The notes beneath the pieces were generated by a model that was given only the letters and a program-made list of their open reading frames with translations, made no database searches and was not told the DNA's origin. From positions 1 through 35,366 of IMG/VR virus record IMGVR_UViG_3300001847_000371: a stretch of DNA of 35,366 nt, one strand, 5' to 3'. The stretch's first letter is position 1. Each line of letters begins with the position of its first letter. The translations under genes and the position numbers were made by a program. Of the stretch, positions 1,456 through 27,830 are shown piece by piece. The stretch comes from a virus.

Positions 1456-1695
1456 TTTCTTGATTCGTTTCTTTTTCGGTTTCTCTTCCTCTAAACCCAC
1501 AGAATAAAAATCTCGGTATTCCTGCTCTGGAATTTCTTCATGTTTCGTAGATTCTGTCCAGTAGAAACTATTGGTATGGTTCAGCATACTTTGTAGGTTT
1601 CTACCAATACACACAAACTTATATTTGAAACCCGTTTTCATGACAACATGAACCTTATAGTAAGGTGCGGGTTTCTTGGCCTTCGTTTCTGTCAT
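1444..1695 (-). CDS. hypothetical protein with basic tail, 83 aa
   Basis: Starts MTETKAKKPAPYYKVHVVM and ends in a lysine-rich KPKKKRIKKSVE tail, with a beta-rich centre (FKYKFVCIGRNLQSML). Its ATG overlaps the stop of the 51-aa basic protein upstream (ATGA, 1692-1695). Its 3' end overlaps the convergent plus-strand gene by 12 nt. The basic tail suggests nucleic-acid or membrane contact, which is inference only. Family not recognised. Confidence 0.65.
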   Translation of the reverse strand: MTETKAKKPAPYYKVHVVMKTGFKYKFVCIGRNLQSMLNHTNSFYWTESTKHEEIPEQEYRDFYSVGLEEEKPKKKRIKKSVE

Positions 1696-1847
1696 TTTCT
1701 TCTGGCTTTTCGTGTGGCTGTCGTGGCGGCGGGTTTCGCTTTCTTGAGCCGAGTGGTTTTCGTAGAAACTTTACCAGTTTTCATATTGGTTGTTTTCGTG
1801 GTACGAAAGGTACCAGCTTCTTTGATAAATCTACGGAACAAACTCAT
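1692..1847 (-). CDS. very basic small protein, 51 aa
   Basis: The start is ATG 1847, which overlaps the upstream stop as ATGA and has AAGGA about 5 nt upstream; a longer frame to 1886 lacks this support. The sequence is full of Lys, Arg and Thr and ends AATTATRKARRK, resembling a histone-like or nucleic-acid-binding tail. No family is recognised. It is coupled to both neighbours. Confidence 0.6.
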   Translation of the reverse strand: MSLFRRFIKEAGTFRTTKTTNMKTGKVSTKTTRLKKAKPAATTATRKARRK

Positions 1848-18156: not shown

Positions 18157-18339
18157 TTACATTTTTGGCGGTTTTCTTCTAGCCAACCTCGTCATTATAG
18201 GATTTCTTTTTTTACTTACGCCTGGTTCTCTTTGTGATGCTGGCAATCTAGAATCACCAGAACCTGCAACGGCAGCAACAGTCATTCCACCACCAACTGC
18301 ACCACCATCTTCAACAAAGAACTGTTTGAACGATTTCAT
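18157..18339 (-). CDS. small putative head/internal protein with CTS-like leader, 60 aa
   Basis: Starts at ATG 18339 (overlapping the upstream stop as TGATG) with MKSFKQFFVEDGG, then a Gly/Ala-rich part and a basic tail (VSKKRNPIMTRLARRKPPKM). The leader resembles the T4 internal-protein targeting leader MKTYQEFIAE. Small Gly-rich proteins of this pattern are common next to structural genes in T4-like phages. A role as packaged basic protein is inference. Confidence 0.6.
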   Translation of the reverse strand: MKSFKQFFVEDGGAVGGGMTVAAVAGSGDSRLPASQREPGVSKKRNPIMTRLARRKPPKM

Positions 18340-19301
18340 CAGCAGTTCCACTTTCTCAATGATTTATTGATGCGTGAATTTGGATCGTGTGCGGTCTTAG
18401 CTGATGTTAAACGTTTTTTCATGCCACTCATTCTCGCACAGAATGATTTGCGGCGATTGGCAGCTTTTGATCCCGGTTTTAGTTTAGAAGGTTTTGTTGT
18501 AACAGCTGTCTTTAGTGTGGAACCAGGATGTTCTCTACGATAAGACATTACGCCTTTTTGATTTAAACCACCAGAAGGATTCTTGCCTTCTTTGCGTTGC
18601 CATGCTGGAGTTGATTCATCAACTTGTTCAACATCTTCACCCCAGTATGGACGATTTGGATTTTCACGCTTCCATTTTGCTTCGGCTGATTCTGGTGGCT
18701 TTTTTGGACCTTGAGTTGCTTTTGCAATTTCAGCATTTTGTTTTTGATTTAATTTATTACCAGCCTTCAGATAACCTTTATCACGTTTAGCAATAGTAAC
18801 TGCTCTTTTAACTGAACGATCACCTGCTTGAAAATCCGCAGATAGTTTGTCGGCATGTGCTTTAGCTTTTGTTCTGTATGAAGTTAATGTTTCTTTACTG
18901 ATTTCATCAATCTGTTCAACTTCTTCATTTACATCTTCGTTCTTGCTGGACAAATATGTTCCAACAGTATTGATGTAATCAGCAGCCAAAGTCACTTTTG
19001 ATTGTACCCATGCTGGCATTTGCTTTTCATAATCTTTACCAACATATTCACGGATCATTTTTGAACAACGATCAATATCATCCAGTTGATTTAATATCAT
19101 ACTGCCTTCGTCATCCAACATTTTACCCATAGCAATAGCAATATGATTTTCTTCTAATTCAACTTCTTCTGGTACGCAATTGGGAACCTTGCGGCCGCCT
19201 TTCATTTTCATTCCGACAGCAGTATAACCAGACCAGCAAGCGTCTTTTAATTGACCTGTTGGTTTTTTGACTTCGTTAATATATTCTTTAAATTTTTTCA
19301 T
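18339..19301 (-). CDS. putative head-packaged/scaffold-type protein, 320 aa
   Basis: Starts MKKFKEYINEVKKPTGQLKD, with a T4-IP-like leader ending in I-x-E at residues 8-10. Further parts are KDACWSGYTAVGMKMK (19-34), MPAWVQSKVTLAADYI (95-110, a segment common in phage structural proteins), EEVEQIDE (126-133) shared with the 463-aa protein, and a Lys/Arg-rich C-terminus (about 265-320, with SFCARMSGMKKR) that could bind DNA. Similar proteins in aquatic T4-like phages carry DUF6321-type annotation (recalled). Probably an internal virion protein processed by the prohead protease; the exact role is unknown. Confidence 0.65.
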   Translation of the reverse strand: MKKFKEYINEVKKPTGQLKDACWSGYTAVGMKMKGGRKVPNCVPEEVELEENHIAIAMGKMLDDEGSMILNQLDDIDRCSKMIREYVGKDYEKQMPAWVQSKVTLAADYINTVGTYLSSKNEDVNEEVEQIDEISKETLTSYRTKAKAHADKLSADFQAGDRSVKRAVTIAKRDKGYLKAGNKLNQKQNAEIAKATQGPKKPPESAEAKWKRENPNRPYWGEDVEQVDESTPAWQRKEGKNPSGGLNQKGVMSYRREHPGSTLKTAVTTKPSKLKPGSKAANRRKSFCARMSGMKKRLTSAKTAHDPNSRINKSLRKWNC

Positions 19302-19684
19302 ATCTTTAATAATACCTCTGCGATATTTGTATTTAATGGTATCTCGGAAGAATATATGTTCTTTCCTCGAATTCCGTAAACTGCTTCTGGCATAATATTG
19401 AGATATTCTAAAAATGTTTTAAGAATATCATAGTCACGTTCATCTATCTTATAGAACAATATTCTTGCTGTGACCTCTGGTCCAAAAACATTGTTCAATA
19501 AAATAAGGTGGTTCAATATCAAGCGTTCTTTAAGTGATTTCGTCACTTTGTATCTTCTAAACAATCTTTTCAGATACTTGGTACGCTTGATATCTCCCTC
19601 AAATTCTGACATAATGCATTGTGGTGAATTATAGTGTTTCACCGCATACATCACGAAATTTTCTTCATTCAAATCATCAAACAT
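19298..19684 (-). CDS. conserved T4-like phage protein (DUF7207-like), 128 aa
   Basis: A helical protein starting MFDDLNEENFVMYAVKHYNS, with KSLKERLILNHLILLNNVFG in the middle and a C-terminal YSSEIPLNTNIAEVLLKI. The pattern matches a small conserved family of aquatic T4-like phages that I recall as DUF7207. Its ATG lies 7 nt behind a terminator hairpin that takes up the place of the ribosome site. Function unknown. Confidence 0.7.
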   Translation of the reverse strand: MFDDLNEENFVMYAVKHYNSPQCIMSEFEGDIKRTKYLKRLFRRYKVTKSLKERLILNHLILLNNVFGPEVTARILFYKIDERDYDILKTFLEYLNIMPEAVYGIRGKNIYSSEIPLNTNIAEVLLKI

Positions 19685-19707
19685 GATTAAAAGGGGCCGA
19701 AGCCCCT
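19685..19707 (-). terminator. strong intrinsic terminator with TTCG tetraloop
   Basis: On the minus strand AGGGGC-TTCG-GCCCCT (19707-19692) forms a perfect 6-bp stem with a very stable UUCG loop, followed by TTTAATC. It lies 5 nt behind the stop of the Ig-like virion protein gene and only 7 nt before the next ATG. Confidence 0.85.
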
Positions 19708-19712
19708 ATTGA

Positions 19713-20423
19713 TTAGGCTGAAATTAGAATTCGGCCATTGGCAGAGGTTGCTGTAGCACCTGTACCTGTTGCAGATACAACTGCACGGAACACATAGTTG
19801 TTTGCATCCACATTTGTTGGATCAACAGTCAATGTTGCGGTTGTAGCGCCACTAATAATTGTGTTAGCAGGAATACCAGAACCATTCTTGTTACCGTTGG
19901 TCAAATCAACCCAAACACCACCGGCGTTGTTGTTAACTTGCCATTGATATGTCAATGGAGCCGCAGTATTGCCAGCAGTAATTGAAGCTACAACAGAATA
20001 TGAAACGGTATTTGCACTAGCAGCACTTACTGGACCTGCAACTGAATCTGGTTGTGTGCTAATTGTAATGATGGCGTCTTGATAAATTGTATCTTCACCA
20101 TCACCATTAACGCTAGCCAATGCAACTAAAGTTTCTGTTTGTATACGACCTGCACGACCACCAGTACCAACGGTTCTCAAATTCCATCCTTTATGAGCAC
20201 CCATGCCATGGCCTTGTGCTTGAATTTCATTTCCGTCAATATTGAAAAGACCAATGGTTTCATTTGTAATATATGCGTCAGCTGTCGTATTGTTGTAAAG
20301 AATCGCAACATTGGCTGCTGTTGGTGCAGAATTTGCTGCTCCAGCTGCTGATTTTGCAATTGCTGAGCTAACTGCCCAATATGGAGCGTTAGCTGCGTTG
20401 TCGTTATTTCCCCAAGATGACAT
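19713..20423 (-). CDS. virion protein with conserved N-terminal domain and Ig-like C-terminal domain
   Basis: A 236-aa protein rich in Ala, Asn, Thr and Gly with almost no cysteine. The N-terminal half (MSSWGNNDNAANAPYWAVSS ... HKGWNLRTVGTGGRAGRIQT) is a family found in abundant virion proteins of aquatic T4-like phages. The C-terminal half (about 120-236: SVVASITAGNTAAPLTYQWQ ... DANNYVFRAVVSATG) is a bacterial Ig-like fold such as occurs on Hoc-type capsid decoration proteins. It has a strong AAGGAG site, a late-promoter-like box at 20455-20462 and a terminator of its own, as expected for a highly expressed structural protein. Confidence 0.75.
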   Translation of the reverse strand: MSSWGNNDNAANAPYWAVSSAIAKSAAGAANSAPTAANVAILYNNTTADAYITNETIGLFNIDGNEIQAQGHGMGAHKGWNLRTVGTGGRAGRIQTETLVALASVNGDGEDTIYQDAIITISTQPDSVAGPVSAASANTVSYSVVASITAGNTAAPLTYQWQVNNNAGGVWVDLTNGNKNGSGIPANTIISGATTATLTVDPTNVDANNYVFRAVVSATGTGATATSANGRILISA

Positions 20424-20454
20424 TTTATTCTCCTTTTAACCGAGGGTTATATTG

Positions 20455-20462
20455 TATTTATT
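20455..20462 (-). promoter_or_regulatory. T4-late-like promoter box
   Basis: AATAAATA on the minus strand matches seven of eight bases of the T4 late consensus TATAAATA. It lies 31 nt upstream of the Ig-like virion gene, which has its own terminator. Confidence 0.45.
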
Positions 20463-21564
20463 TAATTGGTTTCTCTGAACCGAAAGTTGCTTGTTTTTTG
20501 GTTTTCATCATCGGATCAATCTCAATGGTGTCTCTTGGAGCACCAGTCATAGTCTTACCACCACTTAAAACTGCTGCGGCTTGTGGTGCTTCTTTAGTCA
20601 TAGCGTCAACGCCAGGTTTTTGCAACTTGGTCTTTTTACCGGGTGATGCAACAGGTTTATCTTCTTTTTCATGGTCAAACATATCTTCTTTAATGCCCTT
20701 CTTTTTATAGATGGACTTAATGATTCTTGCTGACTTTGACATTTCTTTCATATTCTTGCGTTTTGCAGGAATTACATCATCAGGATTATTTGCACCGTCA
20801 AATGGCATTTGTGTGGCTGCGTCGGATCCATGGAAAACATCTTCTTTTTTAAACATCTTTTCGATTTGTTTTCCAGTAGATTTCATATGCCCCATCCAAC
20901 GTTTGTTGGATTTTTTATACTCACCTTTTGATGCCAAATCCTTGGCTGATTGACCTGCTTTATCTCTGTAACGATTCAATAGTTCTGGTGACAATTCATT
21001 TAGATACTCAACGGCTTCTTTGATGTTGGCTACTGTATCGTAATCATCCATCGTTAACATACCTTTTTTGCGAATTTCAATCAATTTTTCCACAACACGG
21101 TGTAGATCCATATCAGATTTTAAATCTTCACGTGCAAGTTCCAAAACACGAATCAATAAAGGAATATCAAATGTAACAGTATCTTTTTTGTCTGTTGCCT
21201 CAGAGTGTAATTGTTTATGGCCATCAGCAACACGAATTTCTTTATTCATGTGTTGTGCCTTTTTCAAAGCGTGTAATCTTTTTTGTGTTGGTGTGTGTTG
21301 AGAAGAAATAGATTCTTTCACAGGATCATTTAAATGCTGTGTCGCCCACATTTTATATGCATTTGTCTTAGAATGTGCAACTTTAATATCTTTTGTTGCA
21401 AATTCTGGATTAATACCCCTTGATTTCAGGTATTTGTCTAACAAAGCAGTTTCTGTTATGTTTGCTTTGGCTGACCAAGGATCATTAGGATCGGTACCGA
21501 ATGTTGGCTTACTACAACCACATCCTTTTACCGTATCCTTAACTATTCTTGCTTTTCTGCTCAT
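20458..21564 (-). CDS. capsid/scaffold-type protein, 368 aa
   Basis: The start is ATG 21564, overlapping the upstream stop as ATGA with AAGG 7 nt before; an ATG two codons earlier lacks spacing. Segments: MSRKARIVKDTVKGCGCSKP (1-20); TFDIPLLIRVLELAREDLKS (131-150) followed by DMDLHRVVEKLIEIRKKGML, which recurs in phage scaffold-type proteins; LNELSPELLNRYRDKA (188-203), a relative of the EQIDELSK...LxSY motif of its neighbours; and SKSARIIKSIYKKKG (about 277-291), an echo of the N-terminus. Aquatic T4-like relatives are annotated as capsid and scaffold protein (recalled). Highly charged and probably part of the prohead core. Confidence 0.65.
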   Translation of the reverse strand: MSRKARIVKDTVKGCGCSKPTFGTDPNDPWSAKANITETALLDKYLKSRGINPEFATKDIKVAHSKTNAYKMWATQHLNDPVKESISSQHTPTQKRLHALKKAQHMNKEIRVADGHKQLHSEATDKKDTVTFDIPLLIRVLELAREDLKSDMDLHRVVEKLIEIRKKGMLTMDDYDTVANIKEAVEYLNELSPELLNRYRDKAGQSAKDLASKGEYKKSNKRWMGHMKSTGKQIEKMFKKEDVFHGSDAATQMPFDGANNPDDVIPAKRKNMKEMSKSARIIKSIYKKKGIKEDMFDHEKEDKPVASPGKKTKLQKPGVDAMTKEAPQAAAVLSGGKTMTGAPRDTIEIDPMMKTKKQATFGSEKPIK

Positions 21565-22952
21565 TTCCATGCCTTATCTTCGGTTGTACCTGTTTTGCCA
21601 AGCATTTCAGTTTTCATTCTTTTCATTGCTTGTTTAGCCAAATGTTTAACTCTGGACATTGGTGTGTGTTTTGCACCAGATTTGTCTGTAACAGTTGCTG
21701 GTTTGGATGTTGGATTATATGGACCTTCAAATGGAACGTTATCAGTTTCTGGTCTTTTAGACTCAGTTACTTTTTTTTTATCTTCTGGTTCATCATGTTC
21801 TGGTTTGCTTTTTTGTGCAGCACCACCATATGCACGACCAGCTTTAACGCCTGATCCACCTTTTGATTCTGGTGGTTTTGGTTTTTTCCAATCAAATGCA
21901 TTTTCTTCTACTTGTTCGGTATCTTCTTTGGTCAAACGCTCAACTGCCTTACCAATACCTGCATGACGTTTTTGGGCCGTAGCCATGAATTTTTTAGAAA
22001 GACTGGATGATGCTGCTTTTGAGCTAGGTTTTCTAGCTTTATCTGCCTGATTCTGGAAATCGGCGGAAAGTTTACGAGAAGCACCAACATCTCTTGCTGC
22101 ACTTTTCACATAAGAACCTAAAGTTGATTTTGACAATTCATCAATCTGTTCAACTTCTTCTTCAATATGATTTCCACCACATACGCATGGATCTTGCATA
22201 CAGTCTGGACAAATATCGGTTTCAACTTCTTCGTTGCGTTGTTTTGCATAATAAGCGGCTAAAGCCATCTTTTTACGCATTTCTGTTGATTTGCCTTTAA
22301 ACTTAGGATTATCAGAATGAACAAAATCGTGAATCCAATCACCAGCTTTTGCATCTTTAGATAATACTTCTTGGATCATTTGATCGAAAATTGAATGTTC
22401 TTCGTATTCTTCTTTGAACTTCTTCAATGTCATGGCCAAATTGGCACGCTTACCTAATTTACCACCTTTTTCTGCTGCGGCTTTTAGTTTTTCGGCAGGA
22501 ATCTTTTTGTCAGCAGGAACATGTAGTTGTTTGTGTAGGGCGCCTGGCTTTTTGATAGCCTTTTGGATCCATTTTTCTTTTTCTTCAATCTGTTCAATTT
22601 CTTCTTTTACATCACCAGCAATCTTAACTTTCTTAGACAAATAAGGATCAGCAGATTTCTTTTCACGACCTTTTAATGTGTCTGTTACTTCTTCTTTCAT
22701 TTTGGCTTGTTTGGCAGCTTGTTTCATTGGTTCTTTTTTATTGCCGTCTTTATCTAGATCCAAGAAATCTGGCTTAGCTGCTTCTTTAACTGGTTTCTGA
22801 CCAGCACGAAGCTTAGCTAAATCACCAGCATCAATCTTATCTGCTGGAGGAGACATTTTAGCAATTTGCTTTTGTTTTGGAGAAAGTTCTTTTTTCTCTA
22901 AAATGGATTTTACTGAATCTGCAACAGAATCTTTTTTGTTAAGATTGATCAT
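21561..22952 (-). CDS. capsid/scaffold-type protein with EF-hand-like loop and Cys cluster, 463 aa
   Basis: A modular, highly charged protein. The N-terminal MINLNKKDSVADSVKSILEK with LSPKQKQIAKM and KIDAGDLAKLRAG is a common phage module. DLDKDGNKKEP (65-75) resembles an EF-hand or dockerin calcium loop. EEIEQIEE (117-124) and EEVEQIDE (265-272) contain I-x-E, the T4 prohead protease site. Cys 248, 251, 256 and 258 (CPDCMQDPCVC) may bind zinc. The end (SRVKHLAKQAMKRMKTEML) is seen in capsid/scaffold proteins. It starts inside the upstream stop (ATGA) and has AGGC upstream. Probably a prohead-core or internal head component; the function of each module is unknown. Confidence 0.65.
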   Translation of the reverse strand: MINLNKKDSVADSVKSILEKKELSPKQKQIAKMSPPADKIDAGDLAKLRAGQKPVKEAAKPDFLDLDKDGNKKEPMKQAAKQAKMKEEVTDTLKGREKKSADPYLSKKVKIAGDVKEEIEQIEEKEKWIQKAIKKPGALHKQLHVPADKKIPAEKLKAAAEKGGKLGKRANLAMTLKKFKEEYEEHSIFDQMIQEVLSKDAKAGDWIHDFVHSDNPKFKGKSTEMRKKMALAAYYAKQRNEEVETDICPDCMQDPCVCGGNHIEEEVEQIDELSKSTLGSYVKSAARDVGASRKLSADFQNQADKARKPSSKAASSSLSKKFMATAQKRHAGIGKAVERLTKEDTEQVEENAFDWKKPKPPESKGGSGVKAGRAYGGAAQKSKPEHDEPEDKKKVTESKRPETDNVPFEGPYNPTSKPATVTDKSGAKHTPMSRVKHLAKQAMKRMKTEMLGKTGTTEDKAWK

Positions 22953-24811
22953 TTTTTGCCTGCCTTTTTTCGTTTTATTGTATCGTAGGTATAACCAACT
23001 TTATCTTTAGGATTTTCAATCGGTTCTTTATTATCTGCACCGCTTAGTGTTCCAGCAAATCCAGATTCTTGATCGTTTTGAAATCCATTATACTCATTAA
23101 TTGTTTTTCTAAACTTACCAAAATTTTTATCTTCTCTGTAAGTAACATCGCCCAATCCAGACATAGGGTATACTGTTCCCTGTTGGCGAGTGTCAAATTC
23201 AGGACCAATTCCAGATTGGTTTCTCAACCTTTGATTAACTGTAGGAGAGTCAACAAATCTGTTTTTTTTACTCTTTACTTTTTCTTTGTCTTGCTTGAAG
23301 TTGCTTTCTTTTGGCTCTGGGAAGATTTTGATCGACCCTTCTTTGGACTCGGAGTAGGTTCTGAAGGTGTAACTTCCACGCTTGGCGTTTCTGTCCCACT
23401 TGATGTTGTCTGCGTTTGGATCTCCTGCTCGATTATCGGCTGGGATATCTCCTGGACGGTCTGCTGTGGGGCCTGCTCCTGCACGGAGTTTTGGTTCGGA
23501 ACCGCTGCTGTCCTTTCCGTAAAGTCCAATGGATGGCTTTCTTCTACTTTCTTTGAGCTTCTGAATAAATCTAGAATCTTTCTTAACATAATTTTGTTCC
23601 TCAACAAAAGACTGGTGAATATTATTATTTAGCTTACCGTGATTCTCTAACCACAGGTATGCTTCCTCATTTAGAATCTTGATATCAATAAAATCGTTGA
23701 TACTTTGGTATATATCTGTAATATCTTCTTCTATTTCTTCTAACGAACCACTATTATTCAAATCAATAAAGTGTTCAAATTTATTCTGGTATAGTTCTTT
23801 GTTTGTTTGTGCTTCTTTCCACTTCTTCTGTCTTATGGATTCAGCAATCATTTTTGTCAGTTTTTCGTTGCGTTCTTTACTTGTTTCATTTGAAGTTTCA
23901 ACGAAAACCATTAATGTATCGTATCCTAATTCTTCCAGTTCTTCCTTGATCCAGAACATCTCATTTTGTTTATCGGCAGGACCATTAATAATCAATGGTT
24001 TACGAGTTCTAATTGCTTCTCTACGATAATCAGCCGTTCTTTCTGTTAATTTTTGCTTATCGGCTAAGTATTCAAAGGCCTGAACCGAATTGATTTCCAC
24101 AGCTCTGCTTTCGGCAATTGCTTCACGCAAAATAACATCTTTACCAGAACCAGGTCCACCAGTAACAAAAATGGCTTTGAACATGCCACGATTGACATTT
24201 TCGTGTAGACCCATACCACGACGAACATCATGCATCAATTCTTTTGCATGTGTATCGGAAACATGATGTGGGACACCTTGACGGAAAGATGAAAAATCTT
24301 TGTTTTTAGCATGTTCACGCATTTTAGAACCAGACATGCCCTCTGTACCTTCTGCATCTGGGTCACGATGGCCAGCAGAATGAACGGTTATCTTTTTGAA
24401 ATGGTACAATGCACCTTTGTGTGTACCATTATATTGGTGTAGTTTATCATGGTATTCTTTGACACGGTCTGAACCAGCAACCATATGTAAATGAGTTACA
24501 CCTTTTTTGTGTAACTCAGCTGCATGGTGCAAAAATGTTGGATGCTCTTTTGATGAAGTTGCAAAGTTTGTTCCAGGAGAATAACGCTTTAAGTGTTTGA
24601 GTTTTTGTTCTCCACTTAGAGGATTCTTTTTTGTGTCTTGTGAATGTGAAACAACAACGGAATGCTTTCCGCCGACCTTTTGTGCAACACCTTTAACTTT
24701 GTCGATTAGTTTCAAGTGTCCTGTGGTTGGAGGATTCATGCGGCCAAAGGCCATCACATGATGGTTTTCTTTAGTTTCTTCTTCTCTTAATAACTGTGAA
24801 AATGATTTCAT
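22949..24811 (-). CDS. nucleotidyltransferase + P-loop kinase-like fusion with structural tail, 620 aa
   Basis: Residues 1-10 (MKSFSQLLRE) look like a T4 capsid-targeting leader. Residues 18-200 form a cytidylyltransferase/NMNAT-type domain with GRMNPPTTGHL (23-33, TxGH) and GMSGSKMRE (158-166), the counterpart of ISxTxxR. Residues 211-380 are a P-loop domain with GGPGSGKD (218-225). The order NMNAT-like then P-loop kinase is that of NadR, which makes NAD from nicotinamide riboside. Residues about 400-620 are a low-complexity, then conserved tail (YPMSGLGDVTYREDKNFG) typical of virion-associated homologues in aquatic T4-like phages. A second open frame is printed inside 23275-23589. The substrate is not known. 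Confidence 0.75.
   Translation of the reverse strand: MKSFSQLLREEETKENHHVMAFGRMNPPTTGHLKLIDKVKGVAQKVGGKHSVVVSHSQDTKKNPLSGEQKLKHLKRYSPGTNFATSSKEHPTFLHHAAELHKKGVTHLHMVAGSDRVKEYHDKLHQYNGTHKGALYHFKKITVHSAGHRDPDAEGTEGMSGSKMREHAKNKDFSSFRQGVPHHVSDTHAKELMHDVRRGMGLHENVNRGMFKAIFVTGGPGSGKDVILREAIAESRAVEINSVQAFEYLADKQKLTERTADYRREAIRTRKPLIINGPADKQNEMFWIKEELEELGYDTLMVFVETSNETSKERNEKLTKMIAESIRQKKWKEAQTNKELYQNKFEHFIDLNNSGSLEEIEEDITDIYQSINDFIDIKILNEEAYLWLENHGKLNNNIHQSFVEEQNYVKKDSRFIQKLKESRRKPSIGLYGKDSSGSEPKLRAGAGPTADRPGDIPADNRAGDPNADNIKWDRNAKRGSYTFRTYSESKEGSIKIFPEPKESNFKQDKEKVKSKKNRFVDSPTVNQRLRNQSGIGPEFDTRQQGTVYPMSGLGDVTYREDKNFGKFRKTINEYNGFQNDQESGFAGTLSGADNKEPIENPKDKVGYTYDTIKRKKAGKK
23275..23589 (-). CDS. candidate overprinted gene inside the 620-aa gene, 104 aa
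   Basis: On the same strand but in another frame, ATG 23589 follows GAGGA by 8 nt and opens 104 codons. The product has an amphipathic N-terminal helix (MLRKILDLFRSSKKVEESH), a Gln/Thr/Ser/Pro-rich middle and a Lys/Ser-rich tail (SSQSQKKATSSKTKKK). The host frame here (about residues 408-512 of the 620-aa protein) is low-complexity and the DNA is locally richer in G+C than its surroundings, as expected of two overlapping codes. The composition looks like a membrane- or protein-binding disordered phage protein. Expression is unproven. Confidence 0.45.
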   Translation of the reverse strand: MLRKILDLFRSSKKVEESHPLDFTERTAAVPNQNSVQEQAPQQTVQEISQPIIEQEIQTQTTSSGTETPSVEVTPSEPTPSPKKGRSKSSQSQKKATSSKTKKK

Positions 24812-26004
24812 TTACGTACTTTTAACAGATTTATCTTACTGAATTCTTTGCGATTTACTAACTTTGTTGGTTCACCTGCATGATGAACAACAAATCCTTC
24901 TGGATCTGTTCTTTTTAGTTTACCACCTTCAACTTCTACGTGATGTTCTAATCCACCTTCATGTTGATTTAATGTTCTAACTAACACATCTTTTGCTTGT
25001 TGTAGATGGTGATGCATCTTTAATAAATTATCATATTGTTGTTTATTCTTTTTAATATGATCGACATGTAATTTTGCTTCAGCTTGTTTTCTACCTTGAG
25101 CAGCAGGAGTCTTTAATTTTTCACCGGCCTTTTTATACTTATCCTGTATGAATTTTGATAGACCTTCTGCGTTTGGTTTTTCGTCTGTTCTTACTGTATG
25201 GTTAATATATTGTTCTAGATGACCGCCTTCACCACTATGTGGACTTACAGCAGAATACATCTTTTGACCATTTTTATCGTGAATTTCTTGTGCGGCTTTA
25301 ATATGTTTATTGAATTCACCTTGGTCATCAACAGAATAGTGTACTTGTTTGGTATCATGGTTTGGTGAAATTCTCCAAACGTCTGGGTGATTTTTGAAGT
25401 TGTGTAGGTCTGGATGCGGATCGGCACTCATGGCTTTTGCAGAATCACCATGATATTGCGTGTGTACCACTACTCCAAGCTTTGCTTTTCTAACCTTATC
25501 AGCTTCTTCACCCTTTGCCGTATACTGAATAGTGTTTGGTGTAAAAGAAACTCCTTGTTTTGTTTCTTTCTTATCATCACCAGAGAACATCAAATCACCT
25601 TGATAAACACCAGTTTTTGGTGCGACTTTCTTTAGGTGATTCAAAGCATCATGTAACTTGGCCATTAAACCTGGTGCGTGACCATGGTTTTTTAATATAT
25701 CGGCATGTGTATAGTTAACTTTTGGTGTTTTGTTGAAAGCGGATTTTGACGCAACAAAAAACTTACCTGTTTCTGGGTGATGACCAAACACGATAGATGG
25801 TGAACCATCATATTTCATAGTCAAATGCGAACTGTTGCCACCAGACTTAATATGCTGGTGTGCTTGTTTTAATGCGGCTACGGCATGGTCGAAACCTTCT
25901 GCACCTTTTTGCAAAGGTCTATCTTCCGCATGAGTAATGTGTTTTAATTTTCCGCCTTCGGCTTCTTCAGCCTGTTCACGGATATATGTGACGAAATCTC
26001 TCAT
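24808..26004 (-). CDS. DUF6267-like protein with ligase-type nucleotidyltransferase motifs, 398 aa
   Basis: The leader MRDFVTYIRE (1-10) resembles the T4 capsid-targeting leader. Then come KYDGSPSIVFG (64-74, like motif I KxDG of DNA/RNA ligases and capping enzymes), YQGDLMF (134-140), EGFVVHH (369-375, like motif IV EGxV) and KLVNRKEFSKIN (381-392, like motif V). Related phage proteins with KWDGAP in place of KYDGSP are annotated DUF6267 (recalled). The sequence is unusually rich in His and Lys. It is the first gene behind a consensus late promoter and overlaps the 620-aa gene as ATGA. Predicted adenylyltransferase or ligase-fold virion protein; activity unproven. Confidence 0.65.
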   Translation of the reverse strand: MRDFVTYIREQAEEAEGGKLKHITHAEDRPLQKGAEGFDHAVAALKQAHQHIKSGGNSSHLTMKYDGSPSIVFGHHPETGKFFVASKSAFNKTPKVNYTHADILKNHGHAPGLMAKLHDALNHLKKVAPKTGVYQGDLMFSGDDKKETKQGVSFTPNTIQYTAKGEEADKVRKAKLGVVVHTQYHGDSAKAMSADPHPDLHNFKNHPDVWRISPNHDTKQVHYSVDDQGEFNKHIKAAQEIHDKNGQKMYSAVSPHSGEGGHLEQYINHTVRTDEKPNAEGLSKFIQDKYKKAGEKLKTPAAQGRKQAEAKLHVDHIKKNKQQYDNLLKMHHHLQQAKDVLVRTLNQHEGGLEHHVEVEGGKLKRTDPEGFVVHHAGEPTKLVNRKEFSKINLLKVRK

Positions 26005-26046: not shown

Positions 26047-26054
26047 TATTTATA
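26047..26054 (-). promoter_or_regulatory. consensus T4-type late promoter
   Basis: TATAAATA on the minus strand is an exact match to the T4 late promoter box read by the gp55-type sigma factor. It lies 42 nt upstream of the 398-aa gene in the only sizeable gap (26005-26109) of this region and would drive the head-protein module. Confidence 0.75.
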
Positions 26055-26109: not shown

Positions 26110-26802
26110 TCAATAATATTCAATATTGCCATTTCCAGACAACCATCCAAAACAATGAATTTGGTCCAATTCGACCAGATATTCTTTTGGAATATTATGG
26201 AAATGTGCATGTTCAGTATCAAAACCTTGTTGAATTACTGGTATGTTTTTTCTAATGACTTCAAGGTACGTGTCTATTAATGATGGACACATAGAAAACA
26301 TTCTGGTGATTAGAAGATCCGATATTTCTTTATTGTGCATCCAAGTTGGTATTCTTTTCTTAAAAACGAATTTACCAAAAATATCATGTTCTTCTGCATT
26401 AAAACCTTCCAACAAAACACTTCTACCAGAAAACTTAAAGATTCTTTTAACCGAACTCATCATTTTTGATGTGTCTGGATTCTGTTTAAGTGTAAGTAAT
26501 GTTTTGTATAACATTAGATTTTCAGCAAGACCTTTTTGACCAACTTGAGATAGTTTTAAAACATCAGCATCTTGCGTCATATCAATAAAATAATTTGACT
26601 TTTCTGCAACTGAAGTTCTTTCTAAATCTGTCAATGCACGTATAGAAGCATCAGTTGTTACGATAATTGCATCAGGAACAATCTTGCGAATTGATCTTAG
26701 ACCATCTACTGTTTGTTGAAATCTTTCACCGTCACTAAAAGGACTTACCAAAGGTTTTAACGCTGAAGTAACGATGAATAGGTTTTTGTCAGGCATAATC
26801 AT
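26110..26802 (-). CDS. hypothetical protein of the glycan cluster, 230 aa
   Basis: Starts at ATG 26802, overlapping the upstream stop as ATGA. It begins with LFIVTSALKP and contains RKIVPDAIIVTTDASIRALT and GRSVLLEGFNAEEHDIFG. The start pattern, with a short strand and then a query-like loop, and its placement suggest a glycosyltransferase-related or sugar-reading protein such as those in viral glycan clusters, but I see no DxD metal site. The C-terminus IHCFGWLSGNGNIEYY is distinctive. I do not assign an activity. Confidence 0.6.
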   Translation of the reverse strand: MIMPDKNLFIVTSALKPLVSPFSDGERFQQTVDGLRSIRKIVPDAIIVTTDASIRALTDLERTSVAEKSNYFIDMTQDADVLKLSQVGQKGLAENLMLYKTLLTLKQNPDTSKMMSSVKRIFKFSGRSVLLEGFNAEEHDIFGKFVFKKRIPTWMHNKEISDLLITRMFSMCPSLIDTYLEVIRKNIPVIQQGFDTEHAHFHNIPKEYLVELDQIHCFGWLSGNGNIEYY

Positions 26803-27830
26803 AAAAAATCACTTAATTTATCATCATTTCTATAAAGATTGATTGCAACTGCCCTTGGATATGGATTTGATTCATTATAATCATTAATCAGTATGCGTTT
26901 TGAATTCTGCAAACCACAAATGAGATTGAAACTCATAAACCCAAGGTCATACAACATTTGTCTGGTGATACTGGTATATTCGTTTGGTCTTGCTGATGTA
27001 AAGATAAATTGAGCACCTTTGGCTTGTAATTCTAACAATCGTTTGATATTCTTATGCAAAGGAATAGGTTTGCTCTCATAACTATTTGAACCAACACGTG
27101 TCTGGTTCTGTATGATTGTTCCATCAATATCACAGAAAATGACTGGTTTATCATTATATTCAAACCAATCATTTGCAGTACCAACATCAACATAATCTGT
27201 AATATACTTGTTAGTAAAGATTTGTAGATTATTGATGCAACGACCAATTACATCTGAAACAAACACTTCCCTATTAGTGTTTAATTCTTCAAAAGCCTGT
27301 TTATATAACATTGCTGATGAAAACTTATAACCACCGACACAAAAGGTGTCAGACACAACTTCTTTCTCTACGATATCCGTTATTATACCATTATTGTTAG
27401 CAATTGTAAAGCTTTTTGATGCCAACTTCTTTAGGATTTCATGTTGTGAAATTTTTGTAACACAAACGTAGTTGTCGCCTTCGGTAATATCATGCTCAAA
27501 AAAACTATCACAATCTTTAATGAATATCTCGGAAGTGTGTAATCCTGCGGATTTAATGATTTGATATACTGTGTCGGCCGGACCTCTGGTTGGTTTATCA
27601 ATAATCACATAATTGATATTGTCAGCCCATTCATGTTGTATCTGTTCAATAACACCATACTTTTCTTCGTGTTCTTTTAATATGCCTATATGAATTCTAA
27701 ATCCTTTCTGTCTAAAGGTTCTCAAGGCATTCATCAACATCATTTCACCCTTATAATCATATAATAGATATTTGGGCTTCATATTTGGAAATCTGGTAGA
27801 AAGACCAGCTGCTGGTACAATTACTTCCAT
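26799..27830 (-). CDS. sugar-nucleotidyltransferase fused to HAD-family phosphatase, 343 aa
   Basis: Residues 1-225 form a nucleotidyltransferase: PAAGLSTRFP (6-15) with PKYLL (19-23), KDCDSF (105-110) and VDVGTANDWFEY (214-225). Residues 229-343 form a HAD domain: FCDIDGT (232-238), FTSARP (277-282), K311 and ILINDY (313-318). It could both make an NDP-activated sugar or polyol and remove a phosphate from an intermediate. With the kinase gene directly upstream (10-nt overlap), the pair resembles LicC/LicA-type or capsule precursor systems. The substrate is unknown. Confidence 0.8.
   Translation of the reverse strand: MEVIVPAAGLSTRFPNMKPKYLLYDYKGEMMLMNALRTFRQKGFRIHIGILKEHEEKYGVIEQIQHEWADNINYVIIDKPTRGPADTVYQIIKSAGLHTSEIFIKDCDSFFEHDITEGDNYVCVTKISQHEILKKLASKSFTIANNNGIITDIVEKEVVSDTFCVGGYKFSSAMLYKQAFEELNTNREVFVSDVIGRCINNLQIFTNKYITDYVDVGTANDWFEYNDKPVIFCDIDGTIIQNQTRVGSNSYESKPIPLHKNIKRLLELQAKGAQFIFTSARPNEYTSITRQMLYDLGFMSFNLICGLQNSKRILINDYNESNPYPRAVAINLYRNDDKLSDFL

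Follow-up and report, generated by a model that had tools for sequence, protein, structure and literature searches.

The internal proteins IPII and IPIII of phage T4 begin with a capsid targeting sequence (CTS) of ten residues, in which positions 4 and 7 are aromatic or hydrophobic and positions 8 to 10 read I/L-x-E. According to the T4 IPIII mutagenesis described in PMC9026906, residues 4 and 7 serve mainly in targeting and residues 8 and 10 in processing; Asp at position 10 of a T4 leader blocked processing but not targeting. T4 also packages and injects an enzyme, the ADP-ribosyltransferase Alt, which has a cleaved N-terminal propeptide (PMC5694885). Here we analyze a stretch of 35,366 nucleotides (IMG/VR record IMGVR_UViG_3300001847_000371; "the window") from a T4-like phage. 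Four genes of the window, all on the minus strand, encode proteins that start with a leader of the IPII/IPIII form.

The window resembles IPII and IPIII in the layout of its leaders and in the presence of a gp21-type protease in its phage group. It differs in that several proteins of one module are tagged and in that the cargo includes two predicted nucleotidyltransferases; at an E value of 0.1, none of the four leader proteins matched a PHROG internal-protein family, and no homology to T4 IPI, IPII, or IPIII was found in the mature part. As with Alt, the predicted head cargo includes enzymes, but Alt starts with MELITE, which is off the leader pattern, and the window enzymes are of a different chemistry. 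The cytidylyltransferase/NMNAT proteins in the virions of cyanophages S-SM1, S-SCSM1, S-SZBM1, and S-CREM2 share both a homologous domain and the leader with one window protein, and the gene neighborhood is similar in S-SM1 and S-SZBM1; unlike these proteins, the window version has a fused P-loop domain. Finally, the 60-amino-acid (aa) protein of the window is small and bears a leader, as does T4 gp61.1 (leader MKTFKEFIKE, Lys-rich tail, encoded beside primase gene 61); gp61.1, in contrast, contains a clear copy of the gp23 arm. We put at about 0.8 the probability that the four N termini are CTSs of the T4 kind and that the enzymes behind them are loaded into the head, cleaved, and probably delivered. 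On this reading, the signal is of a known kind and the cargo is new.

Four leaders in one module

The sequence-only reading of the window had proposed that four proteins share a capsid-targeting leader. Their starts and sequences were confirmed: MRDFVTYIRE (DUF6267 protein, start at 26004), MKSFSQLLRE (cytidylyltransferase, 24811), MKKFKEYINE (DUF6321 protein, 19301), and MKSFKQFFVE (60-aa protein, 18339). All four fit M-x-x-F-x-x-[YLF]-[ILF]-x-E. At the targeting positions, residue 4 is F in every leader and residue 7 is Y, L, Y, and F, respectively; as that reading had it, residues 8 to 10 are I/L-x-E in three leaders and F-x-E (F-V-E) in the 60-aa protein.

We evaluated the role of chance with the pattern M..[FY]..[FYLIVM][LIVFM].E, applied to genes called by a simple script, and with 7,919 decoys in which the four leader constraints were rearranged to other positions. 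The pattern matched 4 of the 49 called genes in the window, a number reached by no decoy (mean, 0.05 matches; maximum, 3). In one relative, G002, 4/200 genes matched, all inside the same module, and again no decoy equaled this; in another, G001, there were 2 matches among 222 genes, both inside the same module (equaled by 66 decoys), and in Melnitz 2 among 195 (equaled by 37). The script mis-set gene starts in S-CREM2 and S-SZBM1, so these calls (1 match each; 609 and 463 decoys equal) were dropped and annotated starts were used for the virion tests in these phages. The DUF6267 gene is free-standing, and the starts of the other three leader genes overlap the preceding stop by 1 to 4 bases; thus, no reading frame upstream determines the leader sequences. 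The proteins behind the leader are unrelated: in the window, DUF6267, cytidylyltransferase, DUF6321, and small basic proteins, and in S-CREM2 also an S-adenosylmethionine (SAM) lyase and kinase-like proteins.

When leaders were aligned over homologues, the functional positions were kept and the others varied in two unrelated families. The DUF6267 sample was the best 80 of 500 candidate loci in the viral collection, of which 78 had readable starts, giving 44 unique N termini; F4, [FY]7, [LI]8, and E10 were present in all 44, and positions 2, 3, 5, 6, and 9 were variable. Among the cytidylyltransferases (78 of 79 loci readable, 47 unique N termini), F4 was invariant, E10 was present in 45 and replaced by D in two, and positions 7 and 8 were mostly hydrophobic. 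The codons at leader positions 4 and 8 varied synonymously. With a looser pattern and a broader set, the leader was found in 140/159 unique DUF6267 N termini, at identities down to 26%; below 40% identity it was found in 11/22, and several forms started directly with the domain. A few leaderless cytidylyltransferase sequences began inside a DUF6267 domain and are fusions with it.

The four genes had also been assigned to a late module behind a late promoter. The T4-type sequence TATAAATA lies upstream of the module and is the sole exact late promoter in the window. Taken alone, this single occurrence does not exceed chance, which would give 2.6, and the promoter is significant because it is conserved: TATAAATA occurred within 160 nucleotides upstream of DUF6267, mostly at 50 to 53, in 35/45 unique relatives versus 64/5,093 background tiles. 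The gp21-type prohead protease that such leaders imply was not found in the 35-kb fragment itself. Among 14 records of relatives, 12 contained Peptidase_S77, the gp21 family, which was missing from only the two shortest (71 and 56 kb). Of 10 records, eight gave a capsid-protein match, and in all eight L-x-E stands where processing is expected, with PTN directly behind it.

Leader proteins in the virions of related phages

Published virion proteomes of cyanophages allowed a comparison of leaders with virion contents. We used a strict pattern, M[KR].[FYL]..[FYLIVM][ILVFM].E, an early pattern, and a further pattern fixed by the DUF6267 relatives. Applied to the 220 annotated genes of T4 as a control, the strict pattern selected three, namely ipII, ipIII, and 61.1. 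In S-CREM2, with 52 detected proteins in the source proteome (PMC10665884), it selected 4 of 219 genes: the SAM hydrolase gp6, which has a SAM lyase domain, gp13, the kinase-like gp14, and the cytidylyltransferase gp154. All four were among the 52 virion proteins and none was among the 167 undetected ones (P = 0.0029, or P = 0.00027 without 26 annotated structural and lysis proteins), with the qualification that the strict pattern was written after some S-CREM2 starts had been seen. The early pattern, written before S-CREM2 was seen, matched 5/219 genes, four of them detected (P = 0.012), and the pattern fixed by the DUF6267 relatives matched 3/219, all detected (P = 0.013). Relaxing the strict pattern added gp136, which was detected, and gp32 and gp175, which were not. 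DUF6321 also occurs in the virion-detected S-CREM2 gp137. In S-SZBM1, with 30 detected proteins tabulated in PMC9146016, the relaxed pattern added the cytidylyltransferase gp140 (detected) and gp147 (undetected) to two strict matches considered below. When the two phages were pooled, 4/6 strict matches were detected (P = 0.013).

The cytidylyltransferase/NMNAT has been reported from virions of S-SM1 (as T4-GC190; PMC3037559) and S-SCSM1 (PMC9602691), where it starts with MKKFSAFLNE and MKSFLQFLKE, respectively. The leader was thus present in 4/4 readable virion-detected cytidylyltransferases from S-SM1, S-SCSM1, S-CREM2, and S-SZBM1, although that of S-SZBM1 has nine residues, MRFRQFIIE. A further report, on S-CBWM1, is known to us only as cited. 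The passages on virion cytidylyltransferase that we drew on in the cyanophage papers report its presence and give no targeting signal; in PMC10665884, the words "N-terminal," "leader," and "targeting" do not occur. Another virion-detected S-CREM2 protein, gp12, annotated as Cas9 (L011:7704-10313), has a shifted leader-like sequence, RFASFMAE, at residues 18 to 25; it had no Pfam match at 0.01.

Several results weigh against capsid targeting as we read it. The strict pattern misses T4 IPI and Alt. In S-SZBM1, its two matches, gp191 and gp192, were both absent from the 30 detected proteins, and the early pattern matched 4/218 genes, none of them detected. In S-SZBM1 and S-CREM2, the homologues of DUF6267 have no leader, and neither proteome table contains them. 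In the broader set, with the looser pattern, only 101/161 cytidylyltransferase N termini had a leader. The cytidylyltransferase of G001 has Arg at position 7 and Asp at position 10, the replacement that stops processing in T4. In HTVC008M, 0/183 called genes matched the leader pattern; loose matches were seen only by eye, and this phage was dropped as a positive example. Lastly, the cytidylyltransferase of S-CREM1 starts with MKRYTNFLSE yet is unnamed among the 14 detected proteins, which PMC9964418 lists as four structural and ten unknown.

The S-CREM1 result also counts in favor of the alternative that the cyanophage virion cytidylyltransferases are contaminants, in which case their detection would be uninformative about the leader. 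CsCl-purified virions can hold contaminants, a warning given by the authors themselves (PMC10665884) and raised as well in PMC9602691. Nevertheless, the protein was detected in four different phages with the leader in all four, and replication proteins of S-CREM2, for example gp40 and gp42 (DNA polymerase subunits), are missing from its virion list; we consider contamination improbable. A different objection is that the similarity of the N termini reflects a constraint on translation or start sites, or the shared descent of neighboring genes, and has nothing to do with targeting. The genes do adjoin, all within a single module, and have AT-rich starts. This explanation, however, has to face fixed DUF6267 positions 4, 7, 8, and 10 encoded by synonymously varying codons, unrelated families behind the leader, the failure of the decoy arrangements, and the enrichment of the pattern among S-CREM2 virion proteins, and we give it very little credence.

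The leader might also target proteins to the prohead core mainly for assembly, the proteins then being consumed or kept in the head and none of them delivered. There is precedent in T4, whose prohead is the site where three core proteins, gp22 and gp67 among them, are cleaved to fragments (PMC9026906), and several module proteins of the window are modular, with I/L-D-E ahead of a repeated module. In contrast, the enzyme motifs are invariant, and the virions of relatives have yielded tryptic peptides of leader-bearing enzymes in published work, so that we regard a role confined to assembly as unlikely. We favor the interpretation that the leaders are capsid-targeting signals of the T4 kind, as the sequence-only reading had suggested; it is supported by the four functional positions, by conservation in two families, by the protease in relatives, and by the leader-bearing enzymes in the virions of relatives. 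For the window phage itself, packaging is likely, cleavage after Glu10 is probable, and delivery to the host is plausible. The proteins would be made late in infection from a single module behind a late promoter; the ten-residue leader would dock each of them into the prohead core, and a gp21-type protease would cut after Glu10. Once mature, the proteins would remain beside the DNA inside the head and probably pass into the next host. The set thus packaged would comprise the two predicted nucleotidyltransferases (the ligase-like DUF6267 protein and the NMNAT/cytidylyltransferase-like, P-loop kinase-like protein), the modular DUF6321 protein, and the small basic protein.

Module genes and predicted enzymes

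Table 1 gives the positions of the features. 

TABLE 1 Features of the window, with positions in the 35,366-nucleotide record
Feature	Position	Strand	Remarks
T4-type late promoter TATAAATA	26047..26054	-	Upstream of module; conserved in relatives
DUF6267 protein, 398 aa, leader and disordered linker	24808..26004	-	Pfam PF19782, E=1.6e-98; KxDG, PEG[FY]V, and KLV motifs
Leader codons 1-10, DUF6267 gene	25975..26004	-	Conserved in 44/44 unique relatives
Cytidylyltransferase/NMNAT-like protein, P-loop kinase-like domain, predicted unstructured tail, 620 aa	22949..24811	-	phrog_3041, E=6.9e-66; PF01467
Leader codons 1-10, cytidylyltransferase gene	24782..24811	-	F4 in 47/47, E10 in 45/47 unique relatives
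Modular protein, 463 aa, no leader	21561..22952	-	Same module; EQI[DE]E linkers
Protein, 370 aa, no leader	20458..21570	-	Same module
Protein with stretch related to virion-detected S-SZBM1_136	19713..20423	-	35% identity over 105 residues, E=2.8e-8
DUF7207 protein, no leader	19298..19684	-	Conserved module marker; PF23837, E=1.5e-36; homologues in all six other phages compared
Modular protein, CW-x-GY and DUF6321 domains, 320 aa	18339..19301	-	PF19846, E=2.9e-19
Leader codons 1-10, DUF6321 gene	19272..19301	-	Leader also opens G001 and G002 homologues
Basic protein, 60 aa	18157..18339	-	70% identical to G001 homologue; no family assigned
Leader codons 1-10, 60-aa gene	18310..18339	-	MKSFKQFFVE
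Candidate fifth leader protein, 51 aa, MSLFRRFIKE	1692..1847	-	Lys/Arg-rich body; whole protein has 17 K/R, 1 acidic residue

In the DUF6267 protein, K64, D66, G67, E369-G370, and K381 were invariant in 26 aligned sequences, K64-x-D66-G67 being the KxDG motif. We take KxDG to be motif I, and the other invariant positions to belong to later motifs, of the RNA/DNA ligase-type covalent nucleotidyltransferases. The AlphaFold2 model had a mean predicted local distance difference test (pLDDT) score of 88.9; no segment other than residues 1 to 20 fell below 50, as would suit a detachable leader. Foldseek gave weak matches of the model to DNA ligases (best E value, 8e-3), and with a second aligner RNA ligases ranked at the top (root mean square deviation, 3.6 over 182 residues; Z score, 9.0, which is little higher than the best Z scores of 7 to 8 typical of this tool). 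We read the DUF6267 protein as a probable nucleotidyltransferase of the ligase type, with putative adenylation and sealing activity. Against PDB sequences it had no better than weak matches, to helical proteins that are unrelated, and these were set aside.

The cytidylyltransferase had no match among PDB sequences at 0.01, and its model had a mean pLDDT of 60.8. The P-loop part of the window protein corresponds to a separate, adjoining gene in HTVC008M. Our search of the open-access literature found no mention of DUF6267, DUF6321, phrog_455, or the Pfam numbers. Our best guess is that the enzymes would repair damage inflicted by the host on nucleic acids or NAD soon after entry.

Just upstream of the module lies a gene (26799-27830, minus strand) for a nucleotidyl-transferase that also has a phosphatase domain of the HAD type. 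Between the DUF6267 and cytidylyltransferase genes, both G002 (L171:9167-10171, 334 aa) and G001 (L162:12520-13494, 324 aa) have a gene that is missing in the window; the G002 protein belongs to no Pfam family, and similar proteins elsewhere begin with a leader, MISFKSFLKE. Within the window, the proteins encoded at 21561-22952 and 18339-19301 have EQI[DE]E-like linkers in common, which precede small domains (SKxTLxSY and DUF6321) and could be internal protease sites. We do not claim I/L-D-E as a cleavage point between modules: it precedes the SKxTLxSY module in 15/15 contexts and may be a mere linker. The 51-aa open reading frame at 1692-1847 was not among the leader proteins named in the sequence-only reading and overlaps the stop of the preceding gene; it had no homologue among the fetched loci at an E value of 0.01.

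Small basic proteins and the capsid arm

T4 gp61.1 (L332:18966-19130) aligns with residues 57 to 93 of gp23, across the gp21 site, such that Glu10 falls on Glu65. The alignment score was 82, and none of 2,000 shuffles, with a maximum of 54, reached it. With gp23 as the query, the gp61.1 locus was found in five of six Straboviridae records (E values of 1.9e-6 to 6.9e-4), Ac42 being missed. When the fetched gp61.1 parts were compared with the capsid protein of the same phage, they beat 1,000/1,000 shuffles in T4, RB43, Ac42, Rgz1, and 4S. The scores were not generally higher with a phage's own capsid protein, and coevolution of gp61.1 and gp23 within genomes was rejected. A search with gp61.1 gave matches in 1,343 phage records, although part of these matches may be to gp23 itself. 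Some of the genes so found carry the name major capsid protein; three fetched gp61.1-matched genes adjoin the primase gene.

Similar matches occurred in other phages. The virion protein gp160 of S-CREM2 matched the capsid arm of its own phage (0/2,000 shuffles), and the S-SM1 "major head protein" gp197 matched the S-SCSM1 capsid protein (2/2,000 shuffles); the arm copy in these two proteins has no clear N-terminal leader. Weak matches to the arm were given by S-SZBM1 gp134 (34/2,000 shuffles) and by a small protein of G006 (43/2,000). In seven sampled relatives of the window 60-aa protein, a capsid-arm-like [AG]PTN motif lies between the leader and the basic tail, and their matches to the capsid arms of the group were reached by 4/500 shuffles for G001 and by 0/500 for the other six. 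The window's own 60-aa protein has no capsid-arm motif, and its score was reached by 492/500 shuffles.

We suggest, tentatively and with rather more doubt than confidence, that among the head proteins of T4-like phages are small ones built as copies of the N-terminal arm that the phage's own major capsid protein has when mature. The layout in T4 and in the lineage of the window would be leader, arm copy, and basic tail, with the gp61.1 leader sitting on the processing segment of the capsid protein. Once cut or exposed, the mimic might bind at the capsid-arm site and hold its basic tail against the DNA or the shell; alternatively, it might be a decoy for the protease. In the sources retrieved from the open-access literature, gp61.1 appears in the gene tables of two papers, and among the matches listed there was nothing on point about a capsid-arm mimic.

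If the leaders are what we propose, a short sequence rule would help to predict which proteins of T4-like phages are loaded into the head, and hypothetical genes of aquatic phages would become candidates for injected effectors. There would be a reason for the presence of cytidylyltransferases in cyanophage virions, and a ligase-like enzyme would join the likely head cargo. The gp61.1 protein would be a candidate head protein in phage T4 itself. If both the tagged enzymes and the arm mimics prove true, the stretch from gene 41 to gene 61 may be a head-loading module common to phages from T4 to the window phage.

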